Positions 29,614 to 50,216 of a DNA stretch of 64,000 bases are shown one piece after another; the first letter of the stretch is position 1; the number at the start of each line of letters is the position of its first letter. The position numbers and the translations under genes are program-made. The DNA is from Nitrospirota bacterium. GTDB taxonomy: Bacteria; JACPQY01. The stretch is taken from positions 1 to 64,000 of the forward strand of contig JACPAV010000010.1 in the NCBI GenBank assembly GCA_016180645.1, written 5' to 3'. The notes under the pieces are model-generated. The model saw only the letters and a program-made list of their open reading frames with translations, was not told the DNA's origin and made no database searches.

Positions 29614-30162
29614 TCAGTCCACCGTCGTGCGAATCCGGCGCTCGGCGAGGATTCGCCCTGAATTTCCAAGTCGCCGGCCCACCGAATCGATCGTGCGCTT
29701 GGTGCAGGATTCTGAATCTCCGCCATCCGCATCGACAAATTCGGTGTCGGTGACGCTGATGTAGGCCGTCCCGTTCGGAAGCTGCACTTGGCAAAGGGTC
29801 GGCTTGGCGGTAAGGGAGGACCCCGCGGCCTCGTGACAATCCGGAGTCTCGCCGGGTTGGCCCCAATCGCAGTCCGATTCGAGATTGTGCACGGCCCATG
29901 CCACCCCGGCCTCGGCGATGTAGAGCGCCTCCCCCGAATAGAGCTGCCTCAGGCTGGCCTCCTGCTCGGTCGTCGTGACGCGATAGAGCAGAAGCCCGAT
30001 CGCCGAAATGGCGATGAGGATGAAGAGGGTGGTGATGAGGTTGATGCCTCTGCTGCCAAGAGTTCCTGGTTCCTGGTTCCTGGTTCCTGGTTGCGGAGAG
30101 AGTGTCTCCTTCTTGTTCCTTCCAGGAACGAGGAACTTGCCACCAGGAACTTCTTGAATCAT
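29614..30162 (-). CDS. PilX/GspK-like minor pseudopilin with repeat-derived leader
   Basis: The ATG at 30162 overlaps the upstream gene's stop as ATGA, giving 182 residues. A ~39-residue leader (MIQEVPGGKFLVPGRN, then KKETLSPQPGTRNQEPGTLG) precedes SRG and the hydrophobic helix INLITTLFILIAISAIGLLL. The helix is followed by the PilX/GspK signature YSGEALYIAEAGVAWAVHN. The helix lacks Glu at +5, as is common in this subfamily. Most of the leader is encoded by CAGGAAC heptamer repeats and a duplicated 62-base block. It is the last gene of a three-gene minus-strand pseudopilin operon. Prepilin peptidase should cut after RG, if the unusual leader is tolerated. Confidence 0.8.
   Translation of the reverse strand: MIQEVPGGKFLVPGRNKKETLSPQPGTRNQEPGTLGSRGINLITTLFILIAISAIGLLLYRVTTTEQEASLRQLYSGEALYIAEAGVAWAVHNLESDCDWGQPGETPDCHEAAGSSLTAKPTLCQVQLPNGTAYISVTDTEFVDADGGDSESCTKRTIDSVGRRLGNSGRILAERRIRTTVD
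30062..30092. repeat. Heptamer array GTTCCTG (CAGGAAC), ~4.5 units
   Basis: Four consecutive GTTCCTG units, with no mismatch, inside the leader codons of the minus-strand PilX-like gene, where they encode NQEPGTRNQEPGT. Confidence 0.95.
30091..30152. repeat. 62-base direct repeat, copy 1
   Basis: Matches 30801-30862 with one mismatch (ttgcgg versus ttgagg). It encodes the leader peptide from PGGKFLVPGRN to KKETLSPQPGT in the PilX-like gene. It includes two degenerate AGGAAC units. Confidence 0.95.
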
Positions 30163-30869
30163 CGCTCCGCCAAATCCCTCGGAAAGACGCTCGTTCGGAG
30201 CGTGACGTTGCGCAGGGGGTCCGTGGTGCTCGTCCCGCGGCGAAGCTGGAGCTCGATCTGGACCCGCCAGATGAAACACATGTCGGCGGCGGCCAGCGCC
30301 CCGTCTGGAATCTGGGTCCCATTGTAGCGATAGTATTCGAATAGGTCCGAGTTGACCACGTTCCGGGCAAGGGCTTCCCACGAGGTGCAGGCGTCGCAGG
30401 CGACGGCGCCGACCGCCGCGGCGGTGCCCCGCTCGAGGGTCGTGCCGTTCTTGCGGTAACACACGCGGGGAGTGTCGGGGAGGTTTGAGCGGAACTCGAA
30501 CTGGTCGTCCTTTGCGCAGAGAACGTCGGTCTCGGGCGCGCTGGTGGCACAGCCCGCGGGAACGGGGAGGGTGTTGTCGGAGTCCGAAAGCATCCGGATA
30601 TCCCGCGTCATCTTCTCCAATGCCTCCATCCCCTCCTTCACCATGTCGCGCCGCTCGGCCTGCGCGAGCCCGCCGCGGATGCCTTGGGAAACGATCAGTC
30701 CGAGCACGCCGGAGAGGGCGATCGCGAGGACGATGACGAGCACGAGTTCCAGCAAGGTGAAACCGGAAAAGGTTCCTGGTTCCGGGTTCCTGGTTCCGGG
30801 TTGAGGAGAGAGTGTCTCCTTCTTGTTCCTTCCAGGAACGAGGAACTTGCCACCAGGAACTTTCTTCAC
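30159..30869 (-). CDS. PilW/GspJ-like minor pseudopilin with repeat-derived leader
   Basis: The GTG at 30869 overlaps the upstream stop as GTGA and gives 236 residues. The leader reads KKVPGGKFLVPGRNKKETLS, then PQPGTRNPEPGTFSG. It is followed by the class III prepilin motif FTLLELVLVIVLAIALSGVL, with Glu at +5 and cleavage after G. The mature domain has MVKEGMEALEKMTRDIRMLS, four or more Cys, and a C-terminal IELQLRRGTSTTDPLRNVTL typical of PilW/GspJ. The leader is about 35 residues, against the usual 6-15, and is made of heptamer repeats. Its probable role is in the priming tip complex of a type IV pilus or type II-like pseudopilus. Confidence 0.82.
   Translation of the reverse strand: MKKVPGGKFLVPGRNKKETLSPQPGTRNPEPGTFSGFTLLELVLVIVLAIALSGVLGLIVSQGIRGGLAQAERRDMVKEGMEALEKMTRDIRMLSDSDNTLPVPAGCATSAPETDVLCAKDDQFEFRSNLPDTPRVCYRKNGTTLERGTAAAVGAVACDACTSWEALARNVVNSDLFEYYRYNGTQIPDGALAAADMCFIWRVQIELQLRRGTSTTDPLRNVTLRTSVFPRDLAER
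30772..30803. repeat. Heptamer array GTTCCTG/GTTCCGG
   Basis: Alternating GTTCCTG and GTTCCGG units within the leader of the minus-strand PilW-like gene, encoding RNPEPGTFSG on the minus strand. Confidence 0.9.
30801..30862. repeat. 62-base direct repeat, copy 2
   Basis: Second copy of the block at 30091-30152. It encodes the same leader segment in the PilW-like gene and ends just inside the GTG start at 30869. Confidence 0.95.
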
Positions 30870-31621
30870 CGGTTGACCACCATCGTCGTCAGATCGATGT
30901 AGGCCTGGTCCTTGGTCGTCCCGCCCCACGAGATCCGGACCGAGATGTACTTGAGATCGGCGTTGCCGGTGCCGGGGAAAGTGGACGACGAGTAGGTGGT
31001 GCCGTCGGAGGCGGGATAGCAGGTGCCGAAACATTGCCCGCTGCATGTCCCGTATCCTTTTCCGGACGTGTAGCAGACGGTGACGCGCTCGCGGAAATCG
31101 GAATAGTAGGAAATCGTCGTGCACGTGTTGTCGGCGATCAGGCCGACCCGATCCGTCCCCCCTCCCCCAAGGGGTGGGCAGCCGTCGATTTCGCTGTCCA
31201 TGCCGTCGTAGTCATCGATATCGGTAAAGGGGAGGGACAGGGCGCCGCCGCCGTCGCGCGACTTGTTTGTTTCAGGACCGAGTCCCATCGCATCCGTCAC
31301 CGGACTCGTGCACGTGCAGTAGGTCCCGACGGCCGGGCAGGTGTCCGGCGGCGGACAGTCCACTTGCGCCGACGTTGCCGAGATGTAGTTGTCCCACTTG
31401 TGCGAGAGGATTTCCTCCATGAGGTCTTGGCCCAGGGCGTAGGCTCGATTGTAGCTCTCCACCTGAACGCTGAGTTTCTTGCTCTGCCATATCGGGCGGA
31501 GGGCGACCACGAGGCCGACGGTGAGGAGGACGATCACCACGACCAATTCGATTAGAGTGACCCCTGAAAAGGTTCCTGGTTCCTGGTTCCTGGTTTCGGG
31601 TCCCTGGGCTTTTGACGACAT
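30866..31621 (-). CDS. PilV/MshD/GspI-like minor pseudopilin
   Basis: First gene of the minus-strand pseudopilin operon, 251 residues from an ATG at 31621. The leader MSSKAQGPETRNQEPGTFSG again contains the heptamer-encoded RNQEPGT unit directly before the cleavage site. The helix VTLIELVVVIVLLTVGLVVA has Glu at +5. The mature part contains many Cys (CPPPDTCPAVGTYCTC, CYTSGKGYGTCSGQCFGTCY) and a C-terminal ADLKYISVRISWGG strand pattern seen in PilV/MshD-type proteins. A -10-like TACAAT with upstream TG lies nine bases before the ATG, so the mRNA may be almost leaderless. Confidence 0.82.
   Translation of the reverse strand: MSSKAQGPETRNQEPGTFSGVTLIELVVVIVLLTVGLVVALRPIWQSKKLSVQVESYNRAYALGQDLMEEILSHKWDNYISATSAQVDCPPPDTCPAVGTYCTCTSPVTDAMGLGPETNKSRDGGGALSLPFTDIDDYDGMDSEIDGCPPLGGGGTDRVGLIADNTCTTISYYSDFRERVTVCYTSGKGYGTCSGQCFGTCYPASDGTTYSSSTFPGTGNADLKYISVRISWGGTTKDQAYIDLTTMVVNR
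31571..31608. repeat. Heptamer array GTTCCTG, degenerate end
   Basis: Three GTTCCTG units followed by GTTTCGG and GTCCCTG, in the leader of the minus-strand PilV-like gene, encoding GPETRNQEPGT. Confidence 0.9.
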
Positions 31622-31640
31622 CTCGATGACATTGTAGCAT
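31612..31640 (+). promoter_or_regulatory. Promoter of the four-helix/GspH fusion, overlapping a divergent promoter
   Basis: TTGACG at 31612-31617, 17 bases, TAGCAT at 31635-31640. On the minus strand, TGC-TACAAT (extended -10; TACAAT is the complement of 31631-31636) faces the pseudopilin operon. The two -10 boxes overlap, so initiation in the two directions should compete. Confidence 0.5.
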
Positions 31641-31680
31641 GGTGTGTGCCATAGAAAACTTACTGGAGGGATCGGGGAGC

Positions 31681-32658
31681 ATGAAAGACATCGAAGAATC
31701 GGAAGTTTTCAAGCGGGCTCACACGCTCGTCCTTGAAGTGTACCGACTGACCGAGCGGTTCCCAAACCGGGAAATGTTCGGCATCTCCTCTCAACTGCGG
31801 AGGGCCGCCCTCTCCGTGACTTCCAATCTGGTTGAGGGATCACAACGGATGAACCAAGCGGAGTACCGCCACTTTGTGAGCCTCAGCAAGGGATCGGCCG
31901 CGGAGGCCCGATACCAAACGCGTGTGGCCTACGAACTTGGGTATCTTTTGGAAAAGGATTTCAGAGAACTGTCCGCTTCCTACGAAAGAGTCATCCGCAT
32001 GCTCAGGGGTCTCTACGCGTCGCTCGATGGAAAGCGGCCTTCCAGGAACCAGGAACCAGGGCCTCTCTTGCCCACTAGGAACCAGGAACTAGGAACTAGG
32101 AACTCCGGAGCGTTTACGCTCTTGGAAGTCATCGTCGCCCTCGTCCTCATGGCGGTGCTGGCGGGTATTGCCATCAGCCGGATGTCGGGGTCGAGCCGGG
32201 TGAAACTGGAGCAGGCGGCGCGAATGATGTCGCACGACCTGAACTTCGCGCGCGACTGGGCCATGACGCACGCGACATCCGTGCGGGTGATCTTCGACCG
32301 GTCGACGGAAATCTACGGCGCGTCGTACTGGAGCGTGGATGCCGGCGCGGGAGCCGGCGCCTGGGAATGGATCTCGTCCTACAGCCTCGGGAGCGCCTTG
32401 ACGGTGGATATGGACGAACAGTTCGAAGGGGTGGACATCGCGGACTTCTTCATCGACGGCGCTTCGGTTCCGACGGCCAATCCTCCGGACGGCGTGGGCT
32501 ACACCAGCTTTGCGCTCAGCAGCCTCGGAACGCCGCGGCATGCGTACAACGGGACGCCCCTGACGTCCATGAATCGAGTTACGCTTTCCTTTGGAAGCTA
32601 CACCGAGTACGTGTCGATCCAGCCGTACTCCGGCTACATCTACGTCTGCTCGCAATAG
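31681..32658 (+). CDS. Four-helix-bundle (S23-type) protein fused to a GspH/FimT-like pseudopilin
   Basis: The ATG at 31681 follows a GGGGAG ribosome site. Residues 1-~118 (VFKRAHTLVLEVYRLTERFP, QLRRAALSVTSNLVEGSQR, ARYQTRVAYELGYL) are a complete 23S-intervening-sequence-type four-helix-bundle protein, normally a stand-alone cytosolic protein. With no stop, the frame passes through a heptamer array (RNQEPGPLLPTRNQELGTRN) into SGAFTLLEVIVALVLMAVLA, a prepilin motif with Glu at +5 but Ala rather than Gly at -1. A GspH/FimT-like domain follows (ARMMSHDLNFARDWAMTHAT). The pilin may instead start at an in-frame TTG near 32067. Either it is a true fusion or two genes joined by repeat expansion that removed a stop. 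Confidence 0.75.
   Translation: MKDIEESEVFKRAHTLVLEVYRLTERFPNREMFGISSQLRRAALSVTSNLVEGSQRMNQAEYRHFVSLSKGSAAEARYQTRVAYELGYLLEKDFRELSASYERVIRMLRGLYASLDGKRPSRNQEPGPLLPTRNQELGTRNSGAFTLLEVIVALVLMAVLAGIAISRMSGSSRVKLEQAARMMSHDLNFARDWAMTHATSVRVIFDRSTEIYGASYWSVDAGAGAGAWEWISSYSLGSALTVDMDEQFEGVDIADFFIDGASVPTANPPDGVGYTSFALSSLGTPRHAYNGTPLTSMNRVTLSFGSYTEYVSIQPYSGYIYVCSQ
32042..32105. repeat. Heptamer array CCAGGAA/CTAGGAA
   Basis: Two blocks of CCAGGAA and CTAGGAA units separated by ~20 bases. They form the in-frame bridge between the four-helix-bundle and pseudopilin parts of the 31681 gene. Confidence 0.9.
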
Positions 32659-37849: not shown

Positions 37850-38523
37850 TGGCGGCCAAGGTCGATCTTCGGGTGCAGTTTTTTCGCCTGCCCGGTCCGG
37901 CTCGGTATGGTTTGGCGGCTTCGGTATCGGTGATCGCCTTCGCCATTTTCTACTTTTCCGTTTTCATGGGTCAGCAGGGGAAGATACGCAACCTCCAGGC
38001 GGTGCTCGCTCAGAAGCAGCAGGCGAATCTCATGAACCGGCATGTCGAGCAGGAGCTTCCCCGGCTCAAACAGGTGGTCAAGGATCTGGAGGCGCAGATC
38101 AATGCAGGGCTGGCCGAGCTTCCCAACGAGAAGGAAGTTCCTCAATTGATTAAGGACCTCGAGAATCTGGCGCTCAAGCTCCGCATGAAGGTCTTTTACA
38201 TGAAACTTCAGAATGAAGTGGCGAAAGGATTCTATGCGGAGGTCCCCGTGGAGGTGAAGATCCGCGGCGCCTATCACAACACGGCAATCTTCTTCGACGA
38301 GATCAGCCGGTTTGCCAGAATCATCAGCATGACGAACATTCAGATCGGGCAGGTGACGAAGGACAAGGAAGGGAGTCCGCTCGTCACGACGTCTTGCCAG
38401 GCCACGACGTTTCGGTATCTGCCAAGCACCTTGCCCCAGGCGCCGGGTACGCCTTCAGGCGCGGGAGGGGGCGACCCAACTCCGAGTGCAGGGAAGCACG
38501 ACAGTGGCTCACAAGAGTTATAG
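37849..38523 (+). CDS. pilO: Type IV pilus assembly protein PilO
   Basis: 224 residues from a GTG whose first base is the last base of the pilN stop. One N-terminal transmembrane helix (GLAASVSVIAFAIFYFSVFM) is followed by a coiled coil (QEADLLQ-like heptads in QANLMNRHVEQELPRLKQVV) and the PilO ferredoxin-like domain with the typical VPVEVKIRGAYHNTAIFFDE and SRFARIISMTNIQIG. The C-terminal ~30 residues are Gly/Pro/Ser-rich and probably disordered. It forms the PilN-PilO heterodimer in the periplasm. Confidence 0.95.
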   Translation: MAAKVDLRVQFFRLPGPARYGLAASVSVIAFAIFYFSVFMGQQGKIRNLQAVLAQKQQANLMNRHVEQELPRLKQVVKDLEAQINAGLAELPNEKEVPQLIKDLENLALKLRMKVFYMKLQNEVAKGFYAEVPVEVKIRGAYHNTAIFFDEISRFARIISMTNIQIGQVTKDKEGSPLVTTSCQATTFRYLPSTLPQAPGTPSGAGGGDPTPSAGKHDSGSQEL

Positions 38524-38989
38524 CCCGGCGCTCCCCATCCTGGTCCTTCTCGGCCTCGTGCTGGGTTCGTGCAAGGGGAAACAGCCGCCCGCGCCGGTCA
38601 TGGCTCCCTCTCAGGCCGCCCGACCGCCCGAACTGCGCGAGGAAACTCCGAATGCGGTGAAACGGAGATACCGGTATGTTCCTGAAAATAAGCGTGATCC
38701 ATTCCGGACGTACGTCGAGGCGGCTGAAGTGGTGGGGGCGCGGGATTGCGGCCTGAAGTATCCACGCGAGAATTTCAAGTTGGTCGGCATCATGTGGGGC
38801 GATGTCGCTATAGCGGCGTTTGAAGATGAAGCCGGCGAGGGCTGCTTTCTAAGGGTGGGAGACCGACTGGGAAAGGAGAAAACAGTCATCAGAGAAATCC
38901 TGTTCGATCACGTCGTCGTGGTCGAAAAGCCTCTGGGAATTGGACCGGAAATCTCTCATGAGATGTGGCTCAATGAAGCGGCGAAGTAG
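38504..38989 (+). CDS. pilP: Type IV pilus pilotin-like lipoprotein PilP
   Basis: The GTG at 38504 has an AGGGAAG ribosome site and gives 161 residues; an upstream GTG at 38486 is possible. Lipoprotein signal LPILVLLGLVLGSC, then a Pro-rich disordered stretch, then the PilP core: YVPENKRDPFRTYVE, LKYPRENFKLVGIMWGDVAI, CFLRVGDRLGKEKTVIREIL. PilP bridges PilN/PilO to the N-terminal domains of PilQ. The gene overlaps pilO by 20 bases and pilQ by 17, consistent with tight coupling. Confidence 0.94.
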   Translation: MAHKSYSPALPILVLLGLVLGSCKGKQPPAPVMAPSQAARPPELREETPNAVKRRYRYVPENKRDPFRTYVEAAEVVGARDCGLKYPRENFKLVGIMWGDVAIAAFEDEAGEGCFLRVGDRLGKEKTVIREILFDHVVVVEKPLGIGPEISHEMWLNEAAK

Positions 38990-41168
38990 CTTCGTGGCGC
39001 GAGGCGCGTGGCGCGTGGCGCGGGTCCTGGGGTCTTTTCTTTTTACATTCTTATTCACGATTCACGATTCACGACTCACGACTTACGACCCCCACGATGG
39101 GGGAAGTGCCGCGAGAGGGCAGGAGCCCGGAGCGGCCGGCTCACGACTTGCGACTTACGACTTCCGACTCACGACCCCCCCCGCCTGGGCCCAGGACGAA
39201 GATGAGGAGGAACTGGAGGAATTGGACGAGGTGGAAGAGCCTTCCGAACCTGCTCCATCGGCCCCTTCGCCCAAAGCGGAGCCCTCGCCTGGCGGCAAAG
39301 ACAAGACGACGGAGGCCGGTGAAACTCCGGGCGGCGGTGATGAGGAGGCCGATGAGGACGAGGAGTTGGAGGAAGTCGAGGAGGATGCCTCCGGTCGGGC
39401 GAAAACGCCCGCTCCGGTCGGATTGAACGTGGACAGGATTGACTTCAAGAAAGAAGAGGGGTGGGCGCGCATCGTGGTGACCTGCTCGGCCCCCGTCACG
39501 TACCAGACGTCCCAGATCGAGGCGAAGGCGGTGGCTCTCGATATCCAGGGAGCGATGCTTAAGCCGGACCTCCAAAGGATTCTTGACGTCACCGCGTTTC
39601 AGAGCGTGGTGCATGCCATCGTACCGACTCAATTGCAGGGCGCGCCGAATCCAGTGGTTAGGGTCTTGGCCTCTCTGATGCAGCCGGCGGCGTTTCAAGT
39701 CGATGCGAAGGGAAGAACGCTCCTGTTCTCCTTCAAGGAGCCACCGGGAGGGGTCGCGCCCGGGCCGGCCCAACTGGCCGGGGAGATCAACATCACCGAG
39801 GAGTCGTCGGATCGCCGGAAAGTTTTTACGGGTCCCCGGATTTCCCTCGATTTCAAGGAGATCGATATCGACAACGTTCTCCGGCTCCTGGCGGATGTCA
39901 CCGGGATCAACATTGTGGCCGACGATGACGTGCAGGGGAAAATTACCATCAAGCTGAGCGACGTTCCGGCGGACCAGGCGCTGGATGTGGTGCTCGAGAC
40001 GAAGGGGCTTGGGCGCGTGGAGATCGGCGATCGAATCTTCCGGATCGCGCTAAAGACGCGTCTCGCGGAGGAGATGTCGAAGAAGGTGGAGGCCAAGAAA
40101 GCGGAAGAGAAGGCGGAGCCGTTGGTGACGAAAGTAGTGGCGGTGAATTATGCTTCGGCAGCTGAATTCGAAGGATTGATCAAGGACTCCATCCTGACGG
40201 AACGCGGCAAGATCAAGGTCGACACTCGTTCCAACACGATTGTCGTCAAGGATGTGAACAAGGCCGTCGCCGAGGCGATCACCCTTGTTCGTCGGCTGGA
40301 CATCCAGACCCCCCAAGTGCTGATCGACACCAAGATTGTCGAGGCGACCACCAATTTCCTTCGCACCGTCGGCGCCCAACTGGGCGCCACTTTGAATCTG
40401 GATCAGGCGCGGGGGGTGGCGATGGGTCCGGTAACGGCGGCTCAAGTGGGAGGCGCGGGGGTGACTGGGACGACGGTCCCTTCCCTGAACAACAACTTTC
40501 TGGTGGACTTTCCGGCTGGAGAAATCGGCGCCGGTCGGGGCAGTGGGATAGGGCTTTCGCTGGGCACACTGGGAAACTTTGCCACGGTCAACTTCATTCT
40601 GTCGGCACTGAAGGAATCGGGTGAAGGCAGGGTCGTGGCCAGCCCTCGCGTGACCAGCCTGGACAACAAGGAGGCCATGATTCTTCAGGGCGAAGCGATC
40701 CATATCTTGACCGTGACGGCCCAAGGCTCCGCCGTGCAGGAAATCGAGGCGGTGCTCCGTCTTAGGGTCACACCCCACATCACAACGGATGGAAGTGTTT
40801 ATCTCAAGATCAAGCTGGAACGGAACGAAGCCGATTTCAGTCGACTGGTGGCGGGAATCCCCAACATCATCAGGCGTGAGGCCGAAGCGGAGCTTCTCGT
40901 CCGGAACGGCGAAACGGTGGTCATAGGGGGTGTACATACGCGGATCGCGCGGAAGGCGAAATCCGGCGTCCCCATCTTGTCCGACATTCCAATCATCGGT
41001 ATGCTGTTTAGAAACAGTCAGAGAAGGGAGTCGTCGGATGAACTGGTGATGTTCCTGACTCCGCGAGTGCTCAATTTGCAGAATATCGAAGCTGTCGAGA
41101 CCATCGCCGAGCAGTCGGAAGAGGAGGCACTGAAGGAAATGAAGAAAGACGTCAGCATGGCCAGATAG
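38973..41168 (+). CDS. pilQ: Type IV pilus secretin PilQ with repeat-expanded signal peptide
   Basis: 731 residues from the ATG at 38973. The hydrophobic part of the signal peptide ([13 protein letters not shown]) is separated from the likely cleavage site TPPAWAQ by ~37 residues encoded by heptamer arrays and the 51-base hairpin element ([20 protein letters not shown], then [18 protein letters not shown]). Next come an acidic low-complexity region, an AMIN domain ([20 protein letters not shown]), a secretin/TonB N-terminal domain ([20 protein letters not shown]), an N1 ring domain and the secretin core ([60 protein letters not shown]). It forms the outer-membrane pilus channel. Confidence 0.95.
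38994..39023. repeat. Heptamer array GTGGCGC
   Basis: GTGGCGC, GAGGCGC, GTGGCGC, GTGGCGC inside the pilQ signal-peptide codons (ARGAWRVAR). Confidence 0.9.
39053..39180. repeat. Heptamer arrays ATTCACG/ACTCACG flanking the hairpin element
   Basis: 39053-39088 has ATTCACG x3, ACTCACG, ACTTACG. 39140-39180 has CTCACGA, CTTGCGA, CTTACGA, CTTCCGA, CTCACGA. Both are translated in frame within pilQ as [10 protein letters not shown] and [11 protein letters not shown]. Confidence 0.9.
39089..39139. repeat. 51-base double-hairpin element, copy 1
   Basis: CCCCC-acgat-GGGGG, then GCCGC-gaga-GGGC-agga-GCCC-gga-GCGGC. Copy 2 at 49435-49485 differs at two loop bases and one other. It is embedded in heptamer arrays and translated within PilQ. 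Confidence 0.9.
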
Positions 41169-43798: not shown

Positions 43799-43895
43799 GC
43801 GGTCGGGGGTCGGCGTTCAGAGGTCCGGAACCAGGAACCAGGAACCAGGAACCAGGAACCAGGAACCAGGAACCAGGAACTAGGAACTAGGAACC
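43799..43895. repeat. Long heptamer array, mainly AGGAACC, upstream of mnmA
   Basis: It begins GCGGTCG, GGGGTCG, GCGTTCA, GAGGTCC, then about eight AGGAACC-phase units and three with CT for CC. It starts within a few bases of the stop of the LolD-like gene and ends 22 bases before the mnmA ATG. Confidence 0.95.
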
Positions 43896-43917: not shown

Positions 43918-45012
43918 ATGCTGAAGGAACGTATCGCCGTGCTCATGAGCGGCGGAGTCGACAGCTCCGTCGCCGCCGCCCTGCTCAAGGAACAGGGACA
44001 TGACCCTATCGGCCTCACCTACAACATCGGTCCCTCGCGAGTTCACGGAATCGCGGGTTCACGGGATCACGGTTCACGCTGCTGCGGCATGGACGACATG
44101 ACCGATGCCGCGACCATCGCATCCCAACTTGGAATTCCCCACTATGTCCTCAATGTCCGGGATTCGTTCGCGCGCGGGGTCATCGGAGATTTCGTCGAGA
44201 GCTACCTGAAGGGCGAAACTCCGCTGCCCTGCGCCCACTGCAACACGCGGGTGAAGTGGGGAGAAATGGCCGATCGGGCCAGGGAGATGGGGGCGAGCCG
44301 CATGGCCACGGGGCACTATGCAAAAGTCGATTGGGATGCGTCGCGAGGCCGGCACGTATTGAAGCGGGCCATGGATCTTGAGAAGGATCAGTCCTACTTT
44401 CTTTTCGGCCTCAGCCAGGAGCAACTTGCGTCCGCGATCTTTCCGCTTGGGGACCTCACCAAGCCCGAAGTTCGTGAGCGCGCCGAGGCGTTGGGGTTGG
44501 TCGTCTCCGACAAGAAGGACAGCCAGGAGCTTTGCTTCGTTTCCTCCGGCCACTACTCCGAAGTCATTGCGCCTCACGCCTCACGCCTCACGCCTCACGC
44601 CGCCGGAGAGATTGTGGATGTCTCCGGCGCCGTCCTCGGCACTCACGACGGCTTCTTCAAATTCACCGTGGGGCAGCGGCGGGGTCTCGGACTGAACGGC
44701 GGACCTTACTACGTGAAATCCATCGATTCCGCCACGAGGAAGGTCGTGGTCGGCAACGCGGATTCCACATTGACCGACAGCCTGACGGCTCGTGATCCCA
44801 ATCTGATCGGCTACGAGTCTTGGGAGTCAGTGGGGAGGGTTCGCGCCCGAGTTCGATACCGGCACAAAGGCGAATGGGGTTCGGTGCGATGGGACGGCCA
44901 AAGACTGAAGGTGGAGTTTGAAAATCCGGTTCGAGCCGTTGCGCCGGGGCAAGCCGTGGTCTTCTACCGCGAGGATGAAATCGTGGGCGGAGCGTGGATC
45001 ACACCGGGATGA
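43918..45012 (+). CDS. mnmA: tRNA-specific 2-thiouridylase MnmA with two repeat insertions
   Basis: 364 residues. The PP-loop is LMSGGVDSSVAAALLKEQG; the catalytic cysteines are in PLPCAHCNTRVKWG and SQELCFVSSGHY, the DxxYFL-type element is KDQSYFLFGLSQEQL and GQRRGLGLNGGPYYV follows. It thiolates U34 of tRNA for Glu, Gln and Lys. Two stretches look foreign: VHGIAGSRDHGSRC at ~residues 41-54 (44036-44080, TTCACGG-type repeats) and IAPHASRLTPHAAGE at ~218-232 (44571-44603, four CTCACGC units). Both preserve frame and lie in loops beside conserved blocks. Confidence 0.95.
   Translation: MLKERIAVLMSGGVDSSVAAALLKEQGHDPIGLTYNIGPSRVHGIAGSRDHGSRCCGMDDMTDAATIASQLGIPHYVLNVRDSFARGVIGDFVESYLKGETPLPCAHCNTRVKWGEMADRAREMGASRMATGHYAKVDWDASRGRHVLKRAMDLEKDQSYFLFGLSQEQLASAIFPLGDLTKPEVRERAEALGLVVSDKKDSQELCFVSSGHYSEVIAPHASRLTPHAAGEIVDVSGAVLGTHDGFFKFTVGQRRGLGLNGGPYYVKSIDSATRKVVVGNADSTLTDSLTARDPNLIGYESWESVGRVRARVRYRHKGEWGSVRWDGQRLKVEFENPVRAVAPGQAVVFYREDEIVGGAWITPG
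44036..44080. repeat. Degenerate TTCACGG repeat in mnmA
   Basis: TTCACGG, AATCGCG, GGTTCAC, GGGATCA, CGGTTCA, CGC within the coding frame. The period is close to 7 but less regular than elsewhere. Confidence 0.6.
44571..44603. repeat. Heptamer array GCCTCAC in mnmA
   Basis: Four exact GCCTCAC units in frame, encoding PHASRLTPHA. Confidence 0.95.
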
Positions 45013-47383: not shown

Positions 47384-49081
<1,698 letters not shown>

Positions 49082-49410: not shown

Positions 49411-49434
49411 CAATTCACGATTGACGATTCACGA
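49411..49434. repeat. Heptamer array ATTCACG upstream of the SPOR gene
   Basis: ATTCACG, ATTGACG, ATTCACG, ACC leads into the second hairpin element; one more TTCACGATTCA unit follows it at 49486-49496. Confidence 0.85.
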
Positions 49435-49485
49435 CCCCCAGGAAGGGGGAAGTGCCGCGGGAGGGCAGGAGCCCGGAGCGGCCGG
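49435..49485. repeat. 51-base double-hairpin element, copy 2
   Basis: CCCCC-aggaa-GGGGG, then GCCGC-ggga-GGGC-agga-GCCC-gga-GCGGC. 48 of 51 bases match copy 1. Here it lies in the 5' leader of the SPOR gene. Confidence 0.9.
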
Positions 49486-49496
49486 TTCACGATTCA

Positions 49497-50216
49497 ATGG
49501 CTGACAACATCGGTCGAACCAGTTCGCGTTACGAATTCAGCGCCGATCCGAAGCAATTCGCGCTCCTGCTTGGAGTCGCGGGCCTTTTCGTGGTCGTTGT
49601 TTTCTTTTCCGGAGTTCTTGTCGGGAACATCGTGGCGAAACGACAGGCCAGGCCAACGCTGGCATCGGCGACCGTGCCGGGTGAGGCGGGCGACAAGAAA
49701 AGCGGGGCGATCGACGAAGAGCGGATTTTGAAGGAGTTGGATGCCTCCGCGGCTCCGGAGCCGGGAATGGCGACTCCTCCCGTTGAGTCCGCGCCGCTCC
49801 CCATGGCCGAGCCTGAGCCACCCACCCGGGAGGCAGCTCCACCGCAGATCAAACGGGAGGTTGTGGAACTCACGCCTCCGCCGCCGGTCCGGAAACCGAA
49901 ACCAACATTCGTCCCCTCCGTGAAACCCAAACCAGCTCCCTCACTTGCCACTCGCCACTCGCCACTCGCCACCGGCTCAAGCTACTACTCCGTCCAAGTC
50001 GCCGCCTTCCGGGAGCGGCCGCTGGCGGACCGATTCGCGAACAATTTGAAATCGAAAGCCTACGAAGCGTACGTTGTAAAGGCCAACCTGCCGAGCGGAT
50101 TGTGGTACCGTGTTCGCGTCGGCAAGGTTACTTCCGAGGCGCAAGCCCAGTCCCTCCACTCCAAGCTCGTCAACCGCGAAAAACTCGCCGGCATCATCGT
50201 CCACGAAGGCCGGTAG
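49497..50216 (+). CDS. SPOR-domain inner-membrane protein
   Basis: 239 residues. A short cytoplasmic N-terminus is followed by one transmembrane helix (LLLGVAGLFVVVVFFSGVLV), a Pro/Glu-rich periplasmic linker and a C-terminal SPOR domain (YYSVQVAAFRERPLADRFAN, GLWYRVRVGKVTSEAQAQSL). SPOR domains bind denuded septal peptidoglycan, so a FtsN/DedD-like role in cell division is likely. The linker contains SLATRHSPLATGS, encoded by CACTCGC heptamers at 49944-49975. The ATG at 49497 lies 11 bases after the second 51-base hairpin element, so that element is in the 5' leader. Confidence 0.85.
   Translation: MADNIGRTSSRYEFSADPKQFALLLGVAGLFVVVVFFSGVLVGNIVAKRQARPTLASATVPGEAGDKKSGAIDEERILKELDASAAPEPGMATPPVESAPLPMAEPEPPTREAAPPQIKREVVELTPPPPVRKPKPTFVPSVKPKPAPSLATRHSPLATGSSYYSVQVAAFRERPLADRFANNLKSKAYEAYVVKANLPSGLWYRVRVGKVTSEAQAQSLHSKLVNREKLAGIIVHEGR
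49944..49975. repeat. Heptamer array CACTCGC in the SPOR gene
   Basis: CACTTGC, CACTCGC, CACTCGC, CACTCGC, CACCGGC in frame, encoding LATRHSPLATGS in the linker before the SPOR domain. Confidence 0.95.

Follow-up and report, generated by a model that had tools for sequence, protein, structure and literature searches.

Does the signal peptide of this pilus secretin owe its unusual form to a misplaced start codon, to decay of the gene, or to repeats that the gene has taken up and survived? The gene in question, pilQ, encodes a type IV pilus secretin and occupies positions 38973..41168 on the plus strand of the window (the whole stretch of 64,000 nucleotides analysed here), with a product of 731 residues when read from the ATG at 38973. 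The product scored 369 bits with TIGR02515, where the cut-off is 284, and contains AMIN, STN and Secretin domains, AMIN starting at residue 156. pilM (family match above the cut-off) and a gene with a PilO domain were found upstream. With a family match above the cut-off and pil genes as neighbours, it is an otherwise normal PilQ.

The signal peptide of pilQ

The original prediction had placed the hydrophobic core of the signal peptide 37 residues from the cleavage motif AWAQ. Translation and hydropathy assigned the core to V18-I30 (39024..39062, plus strand), and AWAQ, the original cleavage motif, starts at A71 (39183..39194, plus strand), which leaves 40 residues between them; the wide separation therefore stands, with 40 in place of 37. 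As had also been predicted, the peptide between core and AWAQ is encoded wholly by heptamers of the TCACG type and an element of 51 nucleotides. On the plus strand, a first TTCACGA/CTCACGA array found by repeat search (39053..39086) overlaps the last residues of the core and is followed by the element, a double hairpin that contributes 17 residues in the pilQ frame (39087..39137; covariance model match 39087-39138; fold z = -3.24), and then by a second, more degenerate array (GGCTCACGACTTGCGACTTACGACTTCCGACTCACGA; 39138..39175, repeat search). Tandem Repeats Finder located one more repeat, absent from the original prediction: a GTGGCGC heptamer array at 38993..39022 on the same strand, which encodes part of the n-region.

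A wrongly chosen start codon was ruled out. The in-frame starts ATG 38973, GTG 38994 and GTG 39015 all lie upstream of the core, the next one (TTG 39222) lies past AWAQ, and no in-frame start exists between core and AWAQ; because pilQ start codons occur only upstream of the split, a wrong start cannot account for it. Comparison of the 5′ ends with G001, the single relative of the same family that was compared (54-62% protein identity), supported the split and revealed no true start farther downstream. Both this genome and that of the window (G000) are drafts assembled into many contigs, G001 being a MAG. In G001, pilQ starts at the stop codon of pilP (MSLVPAPLRFLGPAALALALFGFVPLPRAQEEELEEIEE), and its signal peptide, in the position after pilP that the split signal has in the window, is contiguous and of ordinary form, reading MSLVPAPLRFLGPAALALALFGFVPLPRAQ/EEELEE (the slash marks cleavage here and below); an acidic linker of the same kind as that after AWAQ in the window then follows. 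When the repeats were removed in silico from the window pilQ, a short contiguous signal sequence resulted. The pilP-like gene of the window (38486..38989, plus strand, from the ORF list) overlaps the pilQ start by 17 nucleotides at its 3′ end; family and domain profile searches of its product gave no match, and the gene order is as in G001, where the C-terminal end (HEMWL) is similar.

Scanning with the -3/-1 rule put AWA/Q 43 residues past the core. The nearest acceptable sites, GGS/A, GSA/A and SAA/R, lie 15-17 residues past it and are element-coded; the last of them, a putative site SAA/RGQ, corresponds to the codons of S45-A46-A47 (39105..39113, plus strand). Small residues at -3 and -1 within a few residues of the core, as Sec export with signal peptidase I demands, were thus not found in the window PilQ. 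Since the n- and h-regions are intact, targeting should persist, and judging from the sequence PilQ is probably still targeted with an N-terminal repeat tail. On the -3/-1 rule, cleavage at or near an element-coded site may well occur, a reading we hold tentatively; that PilQ stays uncleaved seems rather unlikely, and some other outcome, cleavage at AWA/Q included, would be a little less probable still. The repeat tail falls in the acidic low-complexity N-terminal stretch ahead of the AMIN domain and is therefore probably tolerated by the protein.

We consider it likely, with good confidence, that the pilQ signal was enlarged in frame by heptamers and by an element of a dispersed, apparently mobile family that survives in genes. 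An ordinary signal peptide would have been extended by two kinds of repeat, with GTGGCGC heptamers in the n-region and TCACG-type arrays between core and cleavage site, and the 51-nucleotide double hairpin would have entered the latter. Cleavage of PilQ would then fall at a non-canonical site, for instance the element-coded SAA/R, or the protein would stay anchored, its tail presumably harmless. The pilQ gene is a case in which nature has tried how far a core can shift from its cleavage site.

The double-hairpin element and its insertion sites

BLAST with the pilQ insert, together with a covariance model, identified about 33 copies of the element in G000, the model matches including five 90-nucleotide variants and one 60-nucleotide variant; copies from which the model was built match it by construction. 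One clear copy was detected in G001, on a 9,300-base contig (JACPQY010000051) of the groundwater MAG 'Nitrospirae bacterium' NC_groundwater_665_Ag_B, and this assembly was the only one matched in one pattern scan of the GTDB r220 genomes, in which the window's own genome may have been hidden. The aligned copies gave the consensus GACCYCC-AGGAN-GGRGG-AA-GTGCCGC-GAGA-GGGC-AGGA-GCCC-GGA-GCGGCC, laid out as two hairpins with an internal loop in the second; RNAalifold recovered this structure without guidance. Among 22 distinct copies, 96.7% of the pair cells were standard, compared to 31-48% when the partner was slid. Compensatory change was found in 6 pairs (23 cells), and none of 500 shuffles reached the covariation score. 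Given the roughly 33 genomic copies and compensatory changes beyond any shuffle, the element in pilQ is more than chance. A described RNA family was ruled out as its identity, since a search of 12 element loci against Rfam 15 with E up to 1 returned no match to the element, and a literature search that covered few subscription journals found no account of it.

The size classes are 51, 60 and 90 nucleotides (54 in a sister subfamily described below), each a multiple of three, and in most copies none of the six frames contains a stop. The larger variants carry extra sequence in the second hairpin that keeps the frame (39 nucleotides more in L101, L102, L104, L107 and L109, and 9 more in L106); as a whole, the 90-nucleotide variant folds no better than its shuffles (z = -0.81). 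Two copies of 52 nucleotides, with an odd base, both lie outside recognised genes. The window holds a second copy (49433..49483, plus strand), which sits in a TTCACGA array shortly ahead of a SPOR-domain gene and is probably noncoding. Elsewhere in G000, a selenocysteine tRNA (RF01852, 47.2 bits; L014:196-286, contig C22) was observed just upstream of a noncoding copy.

A table of flanking sequences, with the element taken as GACC...GGCC, disclosed no target duplication, and positions 1-2 of the element did not co-vary with the right flank. Of 34 copies, 29 are preceded by C and 25 are followed by G. About six copies, that of pilQ among them, lie in TCACG arrays, which account for well below 0.3% of the genomic sequence; even with a generous array fraction, the binomial probability of such placement is about 5e-10. 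Heptamer arrays keep their seven-nucleotide phase across the element, and a TCACGA array presents a C/GA site every seven bases, in agreement with the site preference, from which we infer that the supply of C/GA sites caused the placement in arrays. The element would enter as a precise block of 51, 60 or 90 nucleotides, mostly between C and G(A), and without visible target duplication.

Other heptamer arrays in the window were found at 30062-32104, 43827-43895, 44570-44601, 48770-48798 and 49942-49972; they belong to the families GTTCCTG/GGAACCA, CGCCTCA and CACTCGC, and several lie within long ORFs. A long, nearly perfect CTCACGA array of at least 13 units was observed at about 301-400 of locus L034 (contig C58:7280-7377 of G000). 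Expansion of heptamers within genes seems to be genome-wide.

Copies in genes and in a second lineage

Each copy was read in six frames, and the host ORFs were scanned for domains. This placed 22 copies within ORFs with a recognised domain, about 16 of which, by our reading of the sequences, appear to lie clearly within the coding region and not near a possible start. The hosts include MurD, DnaG, SucD (the alpha subunit of succinyl-CoA synthetase), ribonucleotide reductase, NuoB, an alpha/beta hydrolase, a DUF1329 protein, a nitrate-reductase-delta-like protein, the N-terminal part of FtsZ, and a Wza-like exporter with 51- and 90-nucleotide copies in tandem. For several copies near the N-terminus (ftsZ, a mutase, a molybdopterin enzyme, khpA and scpA), the true start could be downstream of the element. 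In SucD, MurD, DnaG and the alpha/beta hydrolase, alignments revealed that the 17-30 element-coded residues are extra with respect to solved homologues and fall at gaps relative to them. The MurD of G001 is without exactly 17 residues, reading RALDSVPGRTVLILGG where that of G000 reads RAIESMT-(17 residues)-RKTVLILGG. All three sense frames are used among the copies, and at least one host apparently reads the element antisense. Since its length is divisible by three and its six frames are mostly without stops, the element survives in genes as a short hydrophilic peptide, and the in-frame copies amount to natural insertion experiments in essential enzymes.

Two further loci were recorded. A molybdopterin oxidoreductase gene on the minus strand (L098:1-1659) has the element and TCACG heptamers just before its Tat signal, a second export signal touched by the element family. 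A glycosyltransferase-like ORF (L089:704-1738, minus strand) carries the element antisense, with other short repeats on its flanks together with a heptamer array in reverse complement that reads HESRVATHESRV.

A scan of 290 genomes, run with stricter filters and therefore liable to miss remoter subfamilies, gave matches that were weaker but recurred within each of two genomes; these belong to another group, which shares no kinship with the window genome below the domain level. A subfamily of 54 nucleotides was then found in all three genomes examined of that second phylum, with the same two-hairpin layout, compensatory pairs of its own and, as in the 51-nucleotide subfamily, GGA in the hairpin loops. 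Its copies lie in frame in an OppD/DppD-like ATPase, PhoH, a TPR protein, a restriction helicase and a zinc-ribbon protein, and a leucine aminopeptidase (PepA) reads one antisense, with 19 residues that are missing from its best solved homologue. Since the subfamily occurs in a second lineage, and in frame there too, the element family is not a local oddity. That two unrelated lineages share it points to transfer, which would require some mechanism of mobilisation.

We infer that the family is mobile. Changes that keep the structure would reflect selection for folding on the source copies, as expected if the element moves in the form of a folded single strand. Seven Y1 (IS200/RAYT-like) transposase genes are present in G000 (L114-L120), but the element model matched none of these loci and no copy flanks any of the genes, which rules out such a transposase as a neighbour. 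Carriage by phage was discarded because neither core pattern was found in the viral contigs searched for both. A broader proposal, doubtful at this stage, is that miniature mobile elements in at least two deep lineages might have evolved for life in genes, with size classes in multiples of three, mostly stop-free frames and movement as folded single strands, and might supply a replacement signal processing site.

Alternative readings and comparison with known elements

Since seven is not a multiple of three, gain or loss of one unit would break pilQ, and the gene, which encodes a surface secretin, carries its heptamer arrays at the 5′ end, so that PilQ might be switched on and off by slippage with the element as a bystander. 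This phase variation is, however, very unlikely: the pilQ arrays are short and degenerate (about four units, 80-95% matches), which disfavours frequent slippage, and the same element occurs in housekeeping genes, where switching would kill. That pilQ is instead a decaying or non-functional gene whose signal was destroyed by repeats would fit a distance from core to cleavage site far beyond the normal range and the presence of other secretin genes in G000. We regard decay as improbable, given that the remaining 650 or so codons are open, that the PilQ match is well above the cut-off, and that the gene keeps its order after pilM and the PilO-domain gene while the total insert preserves the frame.

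The strong covariation and the GGA hairpin loops in both subfamilies could instead mark a functional RNA motif, such as a protein-binding double hairpin, kept for mRNA regulation and not selfish. Copies at arbitrary positions in unrelated coding regions, in several frames and also antisense, speak against this, as does the lack of an Rfam match to the element, and we give a regulatory motif the same low standing as decay. Least probable of all is that the element is excised from RNA before translation as a tiny self-splicing or excised sequence, leaving the proteins normal. Excision would agree with the conserved structure and with insertion that is precise and leaves no target duplication, but about 51 nucleotides is far below the size of any known self-splicing intron, and nearly all copies keep an open frame and sizes in multiples of three, neither of which excision would need.

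Palindromes that code in frame have been known chiefly from the Rickettsiales, whose members are intracellular and reduced; a compact family with another architecture that has repeatedly entered core genes in uncultured bacteria would make the phenomenon a more general one. Tandem 7-mers scattered through the genome are also familiar as the heptameric STRR of cyanobacteria. The TCACGAY and GGAACCA heptamers of G000 are scattered likewise but, unlike STRR, they also occur in coding frames and serve as landing sites for a hairpin element.

REP/RAYT systems resemble the present family in having short hairpin repeats in many copies and Y1 genes in the same genome, whereas REPs are extragenic and many copies of the element are intragenic. 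GTAG/CGTC tags define REP super-families, and among the Rickettsia palindromic elements (RPE) those of R. conorii have CGTC as their terminal tag (PMC3733652). No such tag was found at the ends of the element, nearly all copies of which end GACC...GGCC. The enterobacterial RU-1/ERIC, RU-2/YPAL and RU-3 and the Correia elements of Neisseria are MITE-like, with open frames sometimes fused in frame to genes, and RU-2 contributes to a signal peptide known from prediction (PMC2229807, PMC2759123). They measure 100-170 bp, are mainly intergenic and mostly have target duplications or terminal inverted repeats, in contrast to the many intragenic copies and the absence of visible duplication in our family.

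The closest parallel is found in RPE, dispersed hairpin-forming repeats with no known transposase that join protein genes in frame; the Rickettsia guanylate kinase (Gmk) stays active with an RPE insert (PMC2229807, PMC10969869). Like RPE and the Wolbachia palindromic elements, the element is small, dispersed and hairpin-forming, and lies both in frame in conserved genes and in intergenic regions. It is a short hairpin repeat in many dispersed copies, in frame in conserved genes (SucD, MurD, DnaG, the alpha/beta hydrolase and PepA), as expected of a repeat of the RPE kind. RPE proper are stem-loops of 105-146 bp with terminal inverted repeats of about 12 bp, and the element has neither this length nor such repeats: it is GC-rich, measures 51-54 nucleotides, forms side-by-side hairpins without terminal inverted repeats or tag, occurs in two unrelated uncultured lineages and, unlike RPE, is often nested in heptamer arrays. 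The element works like RPE and, because the size and terminal inverted repeats of RPE are missing, is best treated as a separate family.
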